Source: an uncultured Pelagibacteraceae bacterium
Lineage (GTDB): Bacteria; Pseudomonadota; Alphaproteobacteria; Pelagibacterales; Pelagibacteraceae
Assembly: GCA_902619495.1 (NCBI GenBank)
Contig: CACNEM010000002.1
Location: 62,001 to 126,000, forward strand
Length of the DNA: 64,000 nucleotides
Reading direction: 5' to 3'
How positions within the stretch are numbered: the stretch's first letter is position 1; the number at the start of each line of letters is the position of its first letter. The position numbers and the translations under genes were made by a program. This document shows, in pieces, positions 54,288 to 61,647 of the stretch. The notes under the pieces are model-generated. The model did no database searches and was not told where the DNA came from. It was given only the letters and a program-made list of their open reading frames with translations.

Positions 54288-54731
54288 ATGGAGGTAAAAA
54301 ATTTAAAACTTATCGCTAGAACAGAAGAAGACCTTAGAGTAGTTTCTGCTCATCTTCAAGACTCAATAGCTAATGTATCTGACATTGCAAATTTAGAAAA
54401 AAATAAAATTTTTCTTATGCAATTAAATAGGTTTATGTGGGAGGACGTTGAGAAAGGTGTTTTTAGAAAAAACAAGAGAATTAGAACCATACTTAAATTT
54501 GAAAATGTAATTAAAGTCATATCTAAAAATATCAATCAATTAAAACAAGATAAATTTCTTGATTTTCTTACTATTGAAACTAATAGAATGCCTGATAATA
54601 ACTATGAAATGAAAATAGTTTTTGCTGGAGATTCAATAATTAAAGTCGTATCCGAAGTAATTGAAGTAACTCTTGATGATCAAGGAGATGCTTGGGATAC
54701 AAAAAATATGCCAAAACATAAGGTAATATAA
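54288..54731 (+). CDS. DUF2948-family protein
   Basis: About 147 residues. 'LKLIARTEEDLRVVSAHLQD' and 'FMWEDVEKGVFRKNKRIRT' are characteristic of the alphaproteobacterial DUF2948 family. Function unknown. The start at ATG 54288, two bases after the murA stop, is preferred over a longer frame inside murA. It overlaps hisD by one base. The murA-DUF2948-hisD order is a known alphaproteobacterial arrangement. Confidence 0.85.
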   Translation: MEVKNLKLIARTEEDLRVVSAHLQDSIANVSDIANLEKNKIFLMQLNRFMWEDVEKGVFRKNKRIRTILKFENVIKVISKNINQLKQDKFLDFLTIETNRMPDNNYEMKIVFAGDSIIKVVSEVIEVTLDDQGDAWDTKNMPKHKVI

Positions 54732-56029
54732 TGTTGAAATTTTTTAATGCAAATCAAAAAAGTTCTTTAAAAAAACTTGAATTGATTTTAAATAAAAGAA
54801 AATTAAAGCAACAAACTAAGTCTGCAATAGTAAAGAAAATTTTATTTGATGTGAAAAAATATGGCGATAAAGCTGTGATAAAATACGAAAAAAAATTTTC
54901 AAAAATTAAGTCAAGTTCAAATAAAATCAAATTTTCTAAAAATGAAATAAATCAATTTTCAAAAAAAATTGACATAGACTTAAAAAAAGCAATTGATCTT
55001 GCTTATACAAGAATTAAAAAATTTCATTTAAAACAAACTTTTTCAGCGTTTAAATATAAAGATAGATATAATAATATATTATCCTACAAATATTCGCCCA
55101 TTGAACGAGTGGGAGTATATGTTCCTGGAGGAACGGCTAGTTATCCCAGTACAGTTTTAATGAATTGTATTCCTGCAATAGTTGCAGGCGTAAAGAATAT
55201 TTATCTAACGACTCCAGCTTTAGGATCTTTGGTAAATCCTGCGATAATATATGCTGCAAAAAAATGTGGAGTTAAAGAAATTTACAAAACTGGAGGAGCT
55301 CATTCAATTGCAGCTTTGACCTACGGAACGAGAACTTTTAAAAAAGTTGACAAAATAGTTGGTCCTGGAAATGCATTTGTTGCCTCAGCCAAAAAAGAAG
55401 TTTTTGGAGATGTTGGTATTGATATGGTTGCAGGTCCATCAGAAGTAAGTATTGTTGCAGACAATTATGCAAATCCCAATTGGATTGCATCCGATTTAAT
55501 TGCTCAAGCTGAACACGACATTTTTTCTCAATCAATCTTAATTACCAACAGTAGAAATTTGATTAAATCAGTTAATTTAAGTTTAAGATCACAATTAATT
55601 AAATTACCAAAAAAAAATATAGCTTCAAAAAGTTTAAAAAACTATGGGTTAGCAATATATGTTAAAACTAAAGATAGAATTTCTGAAATTATTAATACTA
55701 TTGCACCGGAACACTTAGAAATAAATTTTCAAAGAGGAGAAAATATTATAAAAAAAATTACAAATGCAGGTTCAATCTTTATTGGTAAATTTTCACCCGA
55801 AGCTATGGGCGATTATTTAGCTGGACCCAATCATGTTCTGCCTACCTCGGGTTCAGCCAAATTTTCCTCAGGTTTGTCAGTGAATGATTTTTTAAAGAGA
55901 CATTCTTTAATAAAAATATCAAAATCAGGTATTGAAAGATTAGGGCCATCAGTTATAAATTTAGCAAAGCATGAAAATTTAGATGGTCATGCTAATTCGA
56001 TAAAATTAAGATTAAAAAAGGATAAATAA
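54731..56029 (+). CDS. hisD: Histidinol dehydrogenase
   Basis: A 432-residue zinc enzyme for the last two steps of histidine synthesis. '[18 protein letters not shown]', '[18 protein letters not shown]', '[10 protein letters not shown]' and '[14 protein letters not shown]' are standard. Its stop is followed at once by the TTG start of infA. Confidence 0.96.
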
Positions 56030-56245
56030 TTGGCAAAACAAGAAACTTTAGAATTTAAAGGAAAAGTGACGGAATTGCTTCCCAACGCAATGTTTAGAGT
56101 AAAATTAGAAAATAATCACGAAATTTTAGCACACACTGCTGGAAAACTTAGAAAGAATAGAATAAGAGTTCTGGCAGGCGATAATGTAATGGTTGAAATG
56201 ACACCATATGATTTAACTAAAGGTAGAATAACTTTTAGATTTTAG
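56030..56245 (+). CDS. infA: Translation initiation factor IF-1
   Basis: A 71-residue OB-fold protein with the normal IF-1 sequence ('[19 protein letters not shown]', '[17 protein letters not shown]'). The start codon is TTG, abutting the hisD TAA. Its TAG stop shares its G with the first base of tRNA-Phe, so the tRNA must be cut out of, or compete with, the infA mRNA end. Confidence 0.95.
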
Positions 56246-56319
56246 GCCTTGTAGCTCAGTAGTAGAGCAGTACCCTGAAAAGGTATGTGTCGTAAGTGCG
56301 ATTCTTACCAAGGCCACCA
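56245..56319 (+). tRNA. tRNA-Phe (anticodon GAA), intact copy with unusual core
   Basis: The acceptor GGCCTTG pairs with CAAGGCC. The anticodon stem GTACC/GGTAT encloses CTGAAAA, giving GAA, and ACCA is encoded. Two conserved positions differ. The D-loop AGTAGTA lacks the usual GG pair, leaving A at 18 and G at 19. The T-loop is TGCGATT, with G at 55 instead of U. These two bases normally pair with each other (G18-Psi55). The 3' 53 bases recur at 61546 and bound a type I restriction-modification islet. Confidence 0.93.
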
Positions 56320-56321
56320 CC
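56269..56321 (+). repeat. Left attachment repeat (attL-like) inside tRNA-Phe
   Basis: A 53-bp block from the anticodon stem through CCA plus two bases, identical to 61546-61598. Upstream the match decays to partial identity. This is the second 3'-tRNA duplication in the window. Confidence 0.92.
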
Positions 56322-56356
56322 AATTAACAATTATTTTACGTTAAGAAAAATACAAC

Positions 56357-57682
56357 TCACTTTTGCTCCACGTATGACTCAGTAAAATATTTGTTATAAA
56401 TAGATCTAGATAAACTCATTAAATCTGAATTTATTTTGTCTAATTTTTCCCTCATTAAAAAAAATTTTTTCCTTAATTTTTCTACCTTTTGCACTATTAA
56501 CATCTGTTCCTCCATTGATGTAATTGGAATTTTAAAAGATCTAATTCTACCTAAATTGAAATTTCCCGCCGCGGATCCTTTACTTGAGGTATTTTTATGA
56601 GCATATCTAATTCCATAAGGAGAATTAAATACTATTGCTAAAAATTCAGAAAGAATAAAATTTTTAAATAATTTAATTAACCCTAAACTAACATAGTAAC
56701 TAAATTCTATTTTTTTATCTATTACAGCAGCTTGACCAACATTCCCAACCCTCCCAACCAAAAGATCGCCTACTTCTGGTTTTTTATTTTTAATATTTTC
56801 TTGATAAGCTTTTTCGGTAATAAATTTATGATTTTCAGGCATAAATTTGAAAGGTTTTACATTTTGTGCAGATAAAAAAGGTCTACCTTCCTCAACATAT
56901 TGTGGAGTTTGATGTGTTCCATCAGTTATCAGCTTTGAAACGTCATATAACTCAATAATTCTCCAATTAGCTGGAACCGACAATTTATAATCATCCTGAA
57001 TTGAATTTTGTTTTTTAGCTAATTTATTTTTTACGTTTTTGTGAAAATTATCCTTTTCCTCTTGAAGCTTCTTTAAAATCTCATCAGGGTCAAAATTTTT
57101 TTCAAATTTAACTAACTTTCCCTCTATAGCTTCTTGTAAGACTGATGAACTAAGAGTTTCGATTTCATTATAGTTTAAATAAATTTTCTTGTACAAACTT
57201 TCAAATTTTAATTCAAATTCATTAATGCTATTAGCTATTTTAGATTGTGTGTTGAGGTCAGGAAGATTTATCTGTAATGGCAAAATATGCTTTGCTTTTA
57301 GCTCTTTTTTAATACCACCTGATGTTTGTTCGTTAAGAAGCTTTTTAAATTGATCACTCTTTAGAAAAAATTTTAAGTAATCAATATTTATTTCATTTTC
57401 ATTAAAACTGTACGAAGAATAGTGTATAGATGCTAAAATATCCTCATCACCTTTATAAACAGAAATTGCTCCTTTGTCAGCGTTGATACCCGAAATTACA
57501 AGATCATTTTTTTTTATTCTAATCATATTAGTGTTAGTAGTAGTCTCTTGATCTAGAAAAATATTTCCCTTAAAGTCTATTTTTTTAACTCTTCCTAAGT
57601 TAGAATTGTTTGCTTCAATTGGCTTAAGAACTTCTTTTCTATGAGATAAAATATCTTTAAATCTAATATTTTTAATTTTCAT
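56357..57682 (-). CDS. hsdS: Type I restriction-modification specificity subunit HsdS
   Basis: 441 residues in two halves. Each holds a target-recognition domain followed by a helical spacer: TRD1 about residues 1-150 with helix to 215, TRD2 about 235-410 with helix to the end. The second half starts 'VPANWRIIELYDVSKLITDG' and contains 'GRVGNVGQAAVIDKKIEFSY', both typical of HsdS. It sets the bipartite DNA target, which cannot be read from sequence. It starts inside the last 11 bases of hsdM. It is intact. Confidence 0.94.
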   Translation of the reverse strand: MKIKNIRFKDILSHRKEVLKPIEANNSNLGRVKKIDFKGNIFLDQETTTNTNMIRIKKNDLVISGINADKGAISVYKGDEDILASIHYSSYSFNENEINIDYLKFFLKSDQFKKLLNEQTSGGIKKELKAKHILPLQINLPDLNTQSKIANSINEFELKFESLYKKIYLNYNEIETLSSSVLQEAIEGKLVKFEKNFDPDEILKKLQEEKDNFHKNVKNKLAKKQNSIQDDYKLSVPANWRIIELYDVSKLITDGTHQTPQYVEEGRPFLSAQNVKPFKFMPENHKFITEKAYQENIKNKKPEVGDLLVGRVGNVGQAAVIDKKIEFSYYVSLGLIKLFKNFILSEFLAIVFNSPYGIRYAHKNTSSKGSAAGNFNLGRIRSFKIPITSMEEQMLIVQKVEKLRKKFFLMREKLDKINSDLMSLSRSIYNKYFTESYVEQK

Positions 57683-59108
57683 CTTTTAGATCCTCTTTAA
57701 TTTTTTTAAATTCAGATATCATTTGACTCAAAGAATTTTCCGTATTTTCTAATGCTTCATCAATACTCAAAATCTTTTTATTTTCTACTATATTTGGGTT
57801 TTTAATATCCAAATTAAAATTTTCTAAATCATTAATATTTACTTTCCAAGAAACCTCACTTTCCTCTCTATTTTTCCACCATTTAAAAACTTTATCGAAT
57901 TCATTAAATTGAATCTCTTTGGTTTTTGAATAACTTAATTGTCCTTCAGGTAATTTATGCTGATAGAACCAAATATCTTCTGTGGGCTTACCCTTATCAA
58001 AAAAGACTAAATTAGTAGGAACAGATGCAGGGAAGAAAGTTGTAGTAGGCATTCTTATAATAGTATGTACATTACAATCTTTTAAAAGTTTCTCTCTAAT
58101 CCTAACTCTGTAGCCCTCTCCTGTAATAGAGCCGTCAGGCAAAACTATAGCTGCCCGTCCATTCTTTTTTAAAAGTTTAATCATTAAAACAATAAATAGA
58201 TCAGCAGACTCTCTACATCTATAAGCAGAAGGGAAATTTGTTTCGACACCGTCAGCAATACTGGCACCAAATGGAGGATTTGCTAAAATTACATCGACCT
58301 GATCTTTATTGGAAATTTTGTTATATTCTATTTTTAAGCTATCTATATACTTGAGTCTTGGTTTATTTAAATCATGTAAAATAAGGTTCGTTAAACCAAG
58401 AACATAAGATACAGGTTTTAATTCCCATCCTTCAATTGAATTTTCTAAAACTGTTTCATCTTTAATTTTTTTAATATAATTTTTTCTTACAAAGTCTATT
58501 GCATTAGTTAAAAAACCACCAGTCCCACACGAAGGATCTAAAATCTTTTCTCCTAGCTTAGGTTTAATTATTTGTGTCATAAATTTAGTAATAGCTCTTG
58601 GAGTGTAAAACTCTCCTTTGTTTCCAGCATCTCGAAGTTCACGTAAAATTGATTCGTAAACATTTCCAAATAATTGTTTATCCTCTGAATTTTTAAAATC
58701 AAATCCATTTAGGTGATTAATTACTTTTCTAAGTTCATAACCTGATTTCATATAATTATTTGACCCATTAAAAACACTAGTAACAATTTCTGATAATTCT
58801 TTATTTTCCCTCACGTTAAGTTTTTTTAAATTAGCAAATAATCCTTTTTTTTCGTTGTCAATAAAACTTATTAATTCATCTCCGGTAATTCCCTCAGAAT
58901 TTGAAGCCCAATTTCTCCATTGAAACTTCTTTGGGATAATTGAGTGATAATTTTTATTAACCAATTCTAGTTCCTGATCTTTTTCATCTAAAATTTTAAG
59001 AAATAATAACCATCCTAATTGTTCCAATCTTTGCGCATCACCAGATACACCTCGATCTTGTCTCATTGTATTTCTAACGTTCTTTATTAAAGCAGAAATA
59101 TTACTCAT
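57672..59108 (-). CDS. hsdM: Type I restriction-modification DNA methyltransferase HsdM
   Basis: 478 residues. The N-terminal helical HsdM_N domain (about residues 1-130) is followed by an N6-adenine methyltransferase core. SAM-binding motif I is 'DPSCGTGGFL' (191-200) and catalytic motif IV is 'NPPF' (277-280). Between them, 'GEFYTPRAITKFM' is the usual HsdM lead-in. It overlaps hsdR by one base and hsdS by 11. It methylates the same target HsdS recognises and protects host DNA. Confidence 0.96.
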   Translation of the reverse strand: MSNISALIKNVRNTMRQDRGVSGDAQRLEQLGWLLFLKILDEKDQELELVNKNYHSIIPKKFQWRNWASNSEGITGDELISFIDNEKKGLFANLKKLNVRENKELSEIVTSVFNGSNNYMKSGYELRKVINHLNGFDFKNSEDKQLFGNVYESILRELRDAGNKGEFYTPRAITKFMTQIIKPKLGEKILDPSCGTGGFLTNAIDFVRKNYIKKIKDETVLENSIEGWELKPVSYVLGLTNLILHDLNKPRLKYIDSLKIEYNKISNKDQVDVILANPPFGASIADGVETNFPSAYRCRESADLFIVLMIKLLKKNGRAAIVLPDGSITGEGYRVRIREKLLKDCNVHTIIRMPTTTFFPASVPTNLVFFDKGKPTEDIWFYQHKLPEGQLSYSKTKEIQFNEFDKVFKWWKNREESEVSWKVNINDLENFNLDIKNPNIVENKKILSIDEALENTENSLSQMISEFKKIKEDLKDEN

Positions 59109-61432
59109 TATATTTGTTTATAAAGATTTTTTTTTAGATCGTTCAGAGCCAAATTGAATTTTTCTTTACCCCCGAAATACATCATTATCTCATGTGGAGT
59201 TCCTAATTTATTAATAGGCGCAATAGTGATAACTCTAGCATCTTCGATTTCAATTATTCCTAAATCAGAATATTTTTCCATTAAACAATCTAAAACTTTT
59301 TTTGCTTTATCTCCAAATTTTGTAAAATAATCTGTTTTTTTTACATTGGTTATACGTTCTTGCCTAGTTAGAGGTTTTTTCTCGTAAGCTACGTGACAAA
59401 TTAAATCAAATGGATCATAGTTTTTACCGATCATTTCCTGTAGAGGCTTAAACATAACTCCGTTATTTTCTAATTCATTAATAATAGTTTTCTTTTGATC
59501 TGACTTATTCCAATGATTTAAAAAATTATCTAATGACTTAAATTTTTCCGTTATACAACTTTTTGTATAATCTTTTAAACTTTTAGTAATTAATTTACCA
59601 TTAATGTCTAAATACTGAACACGCTCATTAATTAAAACAACCTCAACACCAGAAACAGTAATTTTTTTCCTTTTTTCTTTAATATCGTCATCTATCATAT
59701 TATCAGAAACGATTTCCCTACTATTAAAATCATTTTCATAATCTCCTATTAATTGATCTTCTGAATATTCAATTTGTTTTATGGGTTCTCCATCAAATTC
59801 TTTATCAGCAAATAATGAGGTTACATTTCTAAAGTCTAATATTGTAAAATAATATTTTTCAAAATCTTCATTAATTCTAGTGCCTCTTCCGATAATTTGT
59901 TTGAACTCAGTCATTGAACCAATGTTGCTGTCTAAAACTATCAATTTACATGTTTGAGCATCTACTCCTGTAGTTAACAGTTTTGATGTGGTAGCAATAA
60001 CAGGATATTTTTCTGATGGATCAATAAAATCATCTAATTTTTTTTTACCTTCATCGTTATCACCTGTAATTTGCATAACGTAGTTACTATTTTTTTTAAT
60101 CTCTTCCACATTGGCATTTACCAGTTTTTCCCTCATGCCTGCAGCATGTTCAATATCAGTACAAAATAGAATTGTTTTAGAGAATTGCCCTATACTTTTT
60201 AAATATTCAGTTATTTTTTTTGCAACTAACTCTCTTCTTTCTTCAATCACGATATTTTTATCAAAATCCAAAACATTATAAATTCTATCTTCTACTAAAT
60301 TTCCACTTTTGTCTTTAAAACCTTTAGGAGGTCTCCAACCTTCTGCATCAACATCCAAAGTAACTTTAACAACTTTATAAGGAGCTAAAAATCCATCATC
60401 TATTCCTTGTTTGAGTGAATAAGTGTAAAGTGGTTCTCCAAAATACTCTATATTAGATACGCTTCGTGTTTCTTTAGGAGTAGCTGTCATTCCTAAATGG
60501 TCAGCATCCTTAAAATATTCTAAAATTTCCCTCCATTTACTATCATCTCTCGCGCTACCTCTATGACATTCGTCAACTACAACTAAATCAAAAAAGTTTG
60601 GAGAAAATTGTTTAAAGGCATCATTATTTTGATTATCTGAAAGTCCTTGGTAAAGTGCTAAATAAACATTATAAGCTTTATCAATTTTTTTATTTTTAAT
60701 AGTCGTCATAGCCTCTTTAAAATGCCTAAAATCTCCACGAACTGTTTGATCTATTAAAGCATTTCTATCCGCTAAAAATAAAATTCTTTTTTTTTTACCA
60801 CTTTTCCATAAACGATAGATTATTTGAAATGCTGTATAAGTTTTACCTGTCCCAGTAGCCATCACCAACAAATGTCTTTTATTGTCAGTTTTTTTAGCTA
60901 TAGACTCCACTGTTTTGTTTATTGCAATTTGTTGATAATATCGAGGTTCTGGAGATTGAGAGTCCGAATAATAATCCTGTTCAACAATTTTATTTTCATC
61001 GTATGTAATATTTTTAAATTTTCTATATTTTTCCCATAAATCTTTAGGAGATGGGAAATTTTTTAAATTTAACGTATGTTCAATTTTATCTTTTGAGGTT
61101 TTGTCGTGAAAATAAAATTCCTCTCCATTAGAACTAAATACAAAAGGTATATCTAAAATTTCAGAGTAATTTAAAGCTTGTTGAATTCCATCTTTAGATG
61201 AAAACTCTTTCCTTTTAACCTCAATAATTGCTATTGGAATACCAGGTTTATAATAAAGAATATAATCTGCTCTTTTTTTTTCACCTCTTCTGTGACTTTT
61301 ACCGTCTACAATAACTTTGCCATTTGTAAATGTCACCTCTTCTCTAATTTGATCATGTAAATCCCAACCAGCTGAAATTAAATTAGGTGTTATATATTTA
61401 GTGCAAATATCTCGTTCGCTCAATTTTTCCAT
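59108..61432 (-). CDS. hsdR: Type I restriction endonuclease subunit HsdR
   Basis: 774 residues, close to the shorter EcoEI-type R subunits. The N-terminal nuclease domain holds Asp56 ('KRADYILY') and 'IIEVKRKEF' with Glu71 and Lys73, a PD-(D/E)xK site. Walker A is 'MATGTGKTYT' (GTGKT at 194-198) and the DEAD-box is 'VVVDECHRGSARDD' (DECH at 287-290). The late helicase motif is 'IGRGTRINEDF'. It translocates on and cleaves unmethylated DNA. It leads the hsdR-hsdM-hsdS transcript, read toward tRNA-Phe. No clear promoter was seen. Confidence 0.95.
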   Translation of the reverse strand: MEKLSERDICTKYITPNLISAGWDLHDQIREEVTFTNGKVIVDGKSHRRGEKKRADYILYYKPGIPIAIIEVKRKEFSSKDGIQQALNYSEILDIPFVFSSNGEEFYFHDKTSKDKIEHTLNLKNFPSPKDLWEKYRKFKNITYDENKIVEQDYYSDSQSPEPRYYQQIAINKTVESIAKKTDNKRHLLVMATGTGKTYTAFQIIYRLWKSGKKKRILFLADRNALIDQTVRGDFRHFKEAMTTIKNKKIDKAYNVYLALYQGLSDNQNNDAFKQFSPNFFDLVVVDECHRGSARDDSKWREILEYFKDADHLGMTATPKETRSVSNIEYFGEPLYTYSLKQGIDDGFLAPYKVVKVTLDVDAEGWRPPKGFKDKSGNLVEDRIYNVLDFDKNIVIEERRELVAKKITEYLKSIGQFSKTILFCTDIEHAAGMREKLVNANVEEIKKNSNYVMQITGDNDEGKKKLDDFIDPSEKYPVIATTSKLLTTGVDAQTCKLIVLDSNIGSMTEFKQIIGRGTRINEDFEKYYFTILDFRNVTSLFADKEFDGEPIKQIEYSEDQLIGDYENDFNSREIVSDNMIDDDIKEKRKKITVSGVEVVLINERVQYLDINGKLITKSLKDYTKSCITEKFKSLDNFLNHWNKSDQKKTIINELENNGVMFKPLQEMIGKNYDPFDLICHVAYEKKPLTRQERITNVKKTDYFTKFGDKAKKVLDCLMEKYSDLGIIEIEDARVITIAPINKLGTPHEIMMYFGGKEKFNLALNDLKKNLYKQI

Positions 61433-61545
61433 ATCAGTTGCATTAACCTACATTATTCTTGACTCTCTGTGGACTCAGTTGAAGGTCTATTTTGGAGATT
61501 TTTTCAAAATAAAATATATAATTTAAGCGGTTTTTACTGTAGCGT

Positions 61546-61598
61546 AGTACCCTGAAAAGGTATGTGTCGTAAGTGCGATTCTTACCAAGGCCACCACC
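61546..61598 (+). repeat. tRNA-Phe 3' remnant (attR-like)
   Basis: A perfect 53-bp copy of the 3' part of tRNA-Phe. It keeps the anticodon loop, the odd TGCGATT T-loop and CCA, but has no 5' acceptor strand or D-arm. It marks the right end of the restriction-modification islet. The photolyase frame can be extended leftwards through it, but this is an artefact. Confidence 0.92.
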
Positions 61599-61647
61599 TG
61601 CAAACAATGCACATCGATATTTGAAAATAAATTTGTTAAAATTTAAT

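Follow-up and report, generated by a model that had tools for sequence, protein, structure and literature searches.

The contact between G18 of the D-loop and pseudouridine 55 (Psi55) of the T-loop is taught as universal to transfer RNAs (tRNAs). In the portions available, reviews describe G18-U/Psi55 as conserved without bringing up an A18/G55 combination (PMC7912444, PMC4810234, PMC7609411, PMC7566577), and one of them ranks Psi55 first among tRNA modifications for universal conservation (PMC7912444). The available part of another names tRNA-Pyl and some mitochondrial tRNAs as lacking the G18 G19 / T-Psi-C set (PMC7609411), and in T-box stem I, as far as the accessible text goes, two T-loops interlock, one with the consensus UGxRA and its partner with the loop AGAGA (PMC7583486). 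Here we analyse a tRNA-Phe gene in a 64,000-nucleotide (nt) stretch of DNA (the window; GenBank assembly GCA_902619495.1, contig CACNEM010000002.1, positions 62,001 to 126,000 of the forward strand) from an uncultured Pelagibacteraceae bacterium. The gene, from a member of the very abundant ocean group SAR11, encodes A18 and G55 in place of G18 and U55. Whereas tRNA-Pyl and those mitochondrial tRNAs lose the whole elbow signature, this tRNA keeps G19-C56, U54-A58 and the cloverleaf, and 18-55 alone is exchanged as a pair.

A tRNA-Phe with A18 and G55

ARAGORN calls a tRNA-Phe(gaa) at 56245-56319 (+), to which the Rfam model RF00005 gives 68.0 bits (E 1.1e-12; cut-off 29), the top score among the three tRNAs of the window. 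The GAA anticodon lies in a 7-nt loop and the cloverleaf stands well above the tRNA cut-off. The gene and its elbow positions are:

56245-56319, + strand: tRNA-Phe(GAA) with A18/G55 and an encoded CCA (sequence, ARAGORN, Rfam RF00005)
56258-56264, + strand: D-loop A14 G15 U16 A18 G19 U20 A21, with A18 at 56261, G19 at 56262 and position 17 absent (sequence, Rfam, 12-gene alignment)
56297-56303, + strand: T-loop U54 G55 C56 G57 A58 U59 U60, with G55 at 56298 (sequence, Rfam, 12-gene alignment)

The first-pass annotation, made from the letters alone, had read A18-G19 instead of G18-G19 in the D-loop (AGTAGTA) and G55 instead of U55 in the T-loop (TGCGATT). This is confirmed by the sequence, ARAGORN, Rfam and an alignment of SAR11 genes, so that the observation is real; the D-loop numbering, which it had left to such an alignment, holds, and the covariance-model scoring it had proposed gives a good tRNA. 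The 18/19 register is not arbitrary, because the D-loop has the consensus length in the Rfam alignment, with A in place of the first G of UGGUA. Across 12 aligned SAR11 tRNA-Phe genes, G19, C56, A58, G53 and C61 are invariant (the G19-C56 pair is present in 12/12) and positions 18 and 55 vary. The window's gene shares with a canonical bacterial tRNA-Phe the cloverleaf, GAA, U8, A14, G15-C48, G19-C56, U54-A58, a purine at 57, G53-C61, the encoded CCA and its locus in relatives; it differs in having A18 for G18, G55 for U55 and a D-loop one base shorter than that of the canonical SAR11 gene. In the acceptor, anticodon and T-stems of the aligned genes, 11 of 22 pairs are altered on both sides, and 99.6% of the stem cells are paired, compared with 28-45% in slid controls. 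As the stems change in paired fashion, the gene is under selection as a tRNA.

A second tRNA-Phe, which the annotation had named as the finding that would make this copy dispensable, was found neither in the window's own genome, which is 77% complete, nor in a one-contig relative of the same family (G103 in our numbering of genomes; L numbers below are loci). The window's genome (870,201 bases) has 22 tRNA matches above the cut-off, one of them Phe, and the other 21 all carry GG at 18-19 and TTC at 54-56. G103, 99% complete, has 33 tRNA-model matches, 32 of which were read as distinct tRNA genes with exactly one Phe, of the A18/G55 type; the remaining partial match (33 bits) received no tRNA or tmRNA call. 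Among 101 genomes of the window's genus, 77 have a tRNA-Phe 95-100% identical over 74-75 nt (100% in 59, one of them over 74 nt; 95% in 18). The other 24 have no full-length match, as expected since the genomes are incomplete. The 95%-identity genes that were read differ in the T-stem only, and there in paired fashion (GTAAG/CTTAC to GTTTG/CAAAC). Three weak full-length second matches in the genus, tried as further tRNA-Phe genes, are tRNA-Met. Identical tRNA-Phe genes occur in records named Pelagibacteraceae (e.g. L130, L142), which is our ground for assigning the genome to SAR11. Judged by its sequence, the window's gene would serve this SAR11-clade bacterium as its working tRNA-Phe, the sole one as far as the searches show, and is presumably charged and used.

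Covariation of positions 18 and 55 across bacteria, archaea and viral contigs

The annotation had guessed, from this one gene, that the joint change at 18 and 55 is compensatory. We scanned sequence collections three times, once on genomes and twice on viral contigs; the figures of this section are counts among the matches listed. With A18 fixed and the T-loop free, G55 was present in 82 of 94 distinct tRNA genes, U55 in 8 and an irregular T-arm call in 4. The genome scan with the A18 D-arm (a collection of 84,980 species) gave at least 115 stretches, 92 with tRNA calls, comprising 84 G55, 4 U55 and 4 tRNA-Gly of actinobacteria whose T-arm was called as irregular; pattern stretches lacking a parsed tRNA call, as in the rest of these genome loci, were left out. 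The viral-contig scan with A18 yielded 54 distinct tRNAs, 50 with G55 and 4 with U55. For the converse, a viral-contig scan with the G55 T-arm and position 18 free yielded, in loci new to it, at least 69 distinct tRNAs. A18 was parsed in 66 and recognised by eye in two more, the last has U18, and G18 occurs in none. A count over all loci with G55 fixed (81/84 A18) was set aside here because A18 had been the criterion for choosing part of those loci.

The same loci also hold bystander tRNAs that match neither pattern. Among 906 distinct bystanders, 734 were G18/U55, 73 A18/G55, 3 A18/U55 and none G18/G55, with 96 (D-loops neither G18 nor A18, and G18/C55) outside this two-by-two table; also left out were 4 of 910 bystanders, which lack a 7-nt T-loop, and 4 of 1372 tRNAs that could not be parsed. 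Fisher's test gives p 4e-101, or 4e-56 without three converted phage arrays, values that serve only as a guide since the sequences are related. When every distinct tRNA whose 19-56 register is Watson-Crick is counted, the pattern-chosen ones included, the joint table holds 787 G18/U55 and 231 A18/G55, and more rarely G18/C55 (12), A18/U55 (9) and pyrimidine-18 combinations (11), with no G18/G55; 54 tRNAs without that register stand outside it. The neighbouring pair 19-56 varies independently (A19-U56 in 16, U19-A56 in 6, and C19-G56 in one A18/G55 gene). What had been a guess is thus supported by covariation in both directions across unrelated tRNAs.

Carriers are widespread, with names as given in the records, many of them metagenome bins. 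Outside SAR11, A18/G55 tRNA-Phe occurs in Nomurabacteria, Kaiserbacteria and Chloroflexi, and tRNA-Thr of this kind in Elusimicrobia, Vogelbacteria, Micrarchaeota and Pacearchaeota. Elsewhere the combination is found in tRNA-Met, Pro, Ile and Arg, and the carriers also include Patescibacteria and phage contigs. By ARAGORN's labels, the combination spans 20 amino-acid classes. Three phage arrays on IMG/VR contigs (L269, L300, L457) have G55 in 48 of 51 tRNAs; 44 of these 48 parse as A18, and many isoacceptors are represented. Seven records reached by blastn with three phage arrays (S-CAM7, Alice, Cp1R7A-A1, KVP40, Moab, Bigswole and the uncultured LR756501) had no A18/G55 tRNA in the stretches covered, and seven further phage records found by single-tRNA searches gave one case, the tRNA-Met(CAT) of the T4-like Erwinia phage Cronus (NC_055743.1; L535, 5000-5074). 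A18/G55 is therefore rare in these 14 phage records, and named phages were rejected as a ready test system on this one case in the stretches of 14 records. As a separate observation, tRNA-Gly(TCC)-like genes of Streptomyces and Streptacidiphilus (L138, L144, L153, L155, L177; three in the one L138 stretch) combine A18 with a TGC T-loop and an irregular T-arm, and are possibly not ordinary elongator tRNAs.

Taken together, A18-G55 is well supported by sequence covariation as a recurrent, pseudouridine-free replacement of G18-Psi55. Very probably it is A18 and G55, rather than G18 and Psi55, whose contact closes the elbow, through a swap repeated in bacteria, archaea and phages, where we infer both the geometry and the number of origins. 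In such an elbow, the T-loop U54-G55-C56-R57-A58 would keep the U54-A58 pair and the intercalating purine 57, G19-C56 would still form the cap, G55 would replace U/Psi55 at the turn and A18 would replace G18 as its partner, and the fold would form with neither pseudouridine 55 nor a 2'-O-methyl on G18. We take GCRA to be a GNRA-type turn sequence. The contact is proposed because UGCRA fits the UGxRA pentaloop of the T-box motif: the window's gene has UGCGA, and U54 stands with A58 in 206 of 228 distinct A18/G55 genes. The analogy is partial, since the T-box loop, in the available account, interdigitates with another T-loop of the same RNA (PMC7583486), whereas the partner here would be A18 of the D-loop; an A-to-G contact in tRNA-Phe may be inferred from it. 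Positions 18 and 55 would change together because a single change weakens the contact between D-loop and T-loop. The swap appears to have evolved repeatedly and in many isoacceptors, and G18 to A may have come first and U55 to G second, given that A18/U55 is seen and G18/G55 is not.

Variation at 54-58 was also recorded. A54-U58 accompanies A18/G55 in T-loops AGCGTTA, AGCGTAA or AGCATAA (L489, the tRNA-Val(GAC) of G103; L099, a tRNA-His; and phage L269, L281 and L345), and G54/G58 and C54/C58 variants are also present (L159, L199, L192).

Several points weigh against this reading. The rule is not absolute: A18/U55 occurs in 11 distinct genes, 9 with a Watson-Crick 19-56 register, G18/C55 in 12 genes, and Y18/G55 in two, one of them L403. 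The A18/U55 exceptions in the genome scan are a Rickettsiales tRNA-Asp, two tRNA-Thr(CGT) (L183, Micrarchaeota; L221) and a Chloroflexi tRNA-Ile; in two of the three bystander cases (L450, L461) position 56 is U, and G18 A19 is the better reading. The loci that supplied the bystanders were selected because they contain an A18 or a G55 tRNA, and related sequences inflate the counts. The A18/G55 counts are also incomplete, because ARAGORN missed the A18/G55 tRNA-His of G103, so that surveys with it undercount. Finally, among non-SAR11 genomes with an A18/G55 tRNA, 11 of 17 have a match to the TruB family PF01509 (one of the 11 archaeal), so that TruB loss, attractive as a driver, leaves the general case unexplained.

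SAR11 tRNA-Phe, its locus and alternative histories

The tRNA-Phe lies in a conserved hisD-infA-tRNA-Phe neighbourhood, followed in the window by an inserted restriction-modification island:

54731-56029, + strand: hisD, histidinol dehydrogenase (Pfam PF00815, 8e-161; synteny)
56030-56245, + strand: infA, IF-1 (Pfam PF01176, 4.1e-26); its last stop-codon base is G1 of the tRNA-Phe
56357-61432, - strand: type I restriction-modification genes hsdS (56357-57682), hsdM (57672-59108) and hsdR (59108-61432) (Pfam)
61539-61608, + strand: 3' duplicate (remnant) of the tRNA-Phe at the far end of the island, with an identical T-loop

The position after infA is shared by A18/G55 and canonical genomes, as is hisD where the stretch extends that far, and in the family the types found there are two with A18/G55 and a canonical one of 76 nt. 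In 197 sampled family genomes the tRNA-Phe is A18/G55 in 103, G18/U55 in 65 and unassigned in 29, assignments made by identity to types read letter by letter, with most genomes not read individually. No mixed combination was found among the SAR11-family tRNA-Phe genes read, all being G18/U55 or A18/G55. One genus (g4) has all states: 19 are canonical, 24 belong to one A18/G55 type and 5 have the window's type or one close to it. Some of its canonical genes are divergent and look imported. In some g4 genomes (L514, L515, L518, L519) the tRNA-Phe after infA has a wholly different body, which resembles the tRNA-Phe of the large phage LR756501 (L509). These bodies suggest gene replacement.

Other SAR11 tRNAs have switched too. 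A18/G55 tRNA-His occurs in G109 and G248, the tRNA-Val(GAC) and tRNA-His of G103 are A18/G55 and both also A54/U58, and named SAR11 records show the combination in tRNA-His (L163) and tRNA-Thr (L196). The G103 tRNA-His (L541, 166-239) lies above the Rfam cut-off and was read by eye. Within one genus, SAR11 tRNA-His genes have unrelated-looking bodies, a GCACGGGTAGCTC type (L108, L109) and a GCCCGGGTGGTGT type (L100, L101). Class-wide, the exact SAR11 D-arm pattern was found in 2 of 289 genomes, both of the SAR11 family; this exact D-arm is thus confined, which says nothing on the spread of the A18/G55 swap.

The first-pass annotation had also stated that TruB, which makes Psi55, could not modify this tRNA-Phe. 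It was right: G55 stands in place of U55, and TruB was not found, with no PF01509 match in the 77%-complete genome. There and in G103, rbfA adjoins rpsO with truB absent between them, whereas in G105 truB sits between the two (L502). It is missing from this place in 5/5 TruB-less SAR11 genomes inspected, the window's included (rpsO loci L503-L507), the adjacency in three of the five being judged by open reading frame (ORF) sizes only. PF01509 matches occur in 28 of the 197 family genomes, and these 28 fall in genera g5, g7, g9 and g12; of the 77 near-complete genomes sampled, only 10 have one. None of the 103 genomes assigned an A18/G55 tRNA-Phe has a match, compared with 22 of the 65 assigned a canonical one, and TruB loss may therefore have been permissive for the swap in SAR11. 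This association may reflect few events, since TruB is clustered in 4 of 14 genera.

A stronger version, in which TruB loss drove tRNA-Phe to a pseudouridine-free elbow and A18-G55 repairs an unmodified U55, we regard as somewhat unlikely. It agrees with that association and with the missing truB between rbfA and rpsO, and with TruB-less G103, where 3 of 32 tRNAs are switched (Phe, Val(GAC) and His), and TruB-less G248, where Phe and His are. However, 43 of the 65 canonical genomes also have no TruB match, G18/U55 is retained by the remaining 29 tRNAs in G103 and by 21 in the window's genome, and the TruB-positive G109 has an A18/G55 tRNA-His. The canonical genomes without a match lead us to reject TruB loss as a sufficient cause, and the 11 of 17 non-SAR11 carriers with one lead us to reject it as a general cause; that carrier test was given 21 loci, including four SAR11 ones, all four without a match, and PF01509 in archaea presumably includes Cbf5.

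The double change could also have come in one step by recombination, either through an integrating element that replaced the 3' part of the tRNA with both sites or through replacement of the gene by a phage tRNA. We judge this unlikely. The hsdRMS island is 5.3 kb long (56357-61608) and lies between the tRNA-Phe and the 3' remnant, which repeats 56262-56331 at 91%; a 33-nt exact match between the two covers the T-loop and the 3' end. In one relative (L068), the island is absent and a photolyase gene directly follows the tRNA-Phe. Among relatives, seven stretches (L060-L063, L066, L067, L122) have two tRNA-Phe 3' ends 1.6-3.0 kb apart, so insertion at this site is recurrent. In favour of recombination, remnants in relatives often cover query positions 12-75, both sites included, phage tRNAs are rich in A18/G55, wholly different tRNA-Phe bodies occupy the same locus in some g4 genomes, and identical tRNA-Phe genes occur in two genera. 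On the other hand, one A18/G55 type has an anticodon arm and a variable loop identical to those of canonical SAR11 tRNA-Phe, which favours local change, and no integrase was recognised among the island's ORFs.

Shared ancestry alone, without any contact between the two positions, is a very improbable source of the covariation. Many sequences are related, both positions lie within one short gene and the counts are not phylogeny-aware, but the combination is spread over 20 amino-acid classes and distant phyla, and G18/G55 is unseen while G18/C55 and A18/U55 exist.

It is scarcely credible that the tRNA-Phe is a copy in decay or one the cell can spare, or that it reflects an error of sequencing or assembly: a real 3' remnant does lie 5.3 kb away at an insertion site, but the gene is present in 77 of the 101 genus genomes and in named SAR11 records, its type is the only tRNA-Phe of G103, its stems evolve in a compensatory way, and the remnant bears out the annotation's argument that a T-loop shared by both copies is no single-copy slip, chance being excluded by recurrence in the genus.

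A possible second state of the tRNA elbow

We found no description of the A18/G55 combination in a library of 5.39 million open-access papers; older subscription work, the 2003-2004 papers of the Steinberg group and tRNA compilations lie outside it, and we claim no priority. A 2004 paper by Zagryadskaya, Kotlova and Steinberg, cited in PMC7912444, concerns, to judge from its title, the elements that maintain the tRNA L-shape; it reportedly used suppressor-tRNA selections. The 18-55 pair is said, by the title of Pan et al. 2006 (cited in PMC4810234), to matter for translocation. A study of SAR11 tRNA signatures mentions, in its available text, neither G55 nor the T-loop (PMC3937112).

The "universal" tRNA elbow thus seems to have a second solution. 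More tentatively, and with considerable doubt, we suggest that the elbow exists in two states in evolution, one with G18/Psi55 and the other with A18/G55 and no pseudouridine, between which lineages switch repeatedly. Some phages would have converted nearly their whole tRNA set, gaining independence from host TruB and TrmH or a lower recognisability to elbow-reading host enzymes, and in SAR11, once TruB was lost, the swap would have spread one tRNA at a time (Phe, His, Val, Thr). A natural, recurrent and modification-free substitute lets the structural role of the 18-55 pair be separated from that of the modification. It is relevant to elbow recognition by the ribosome, by RNase P and by T-boxes, and to the question why phages encode tRNAs of their own.
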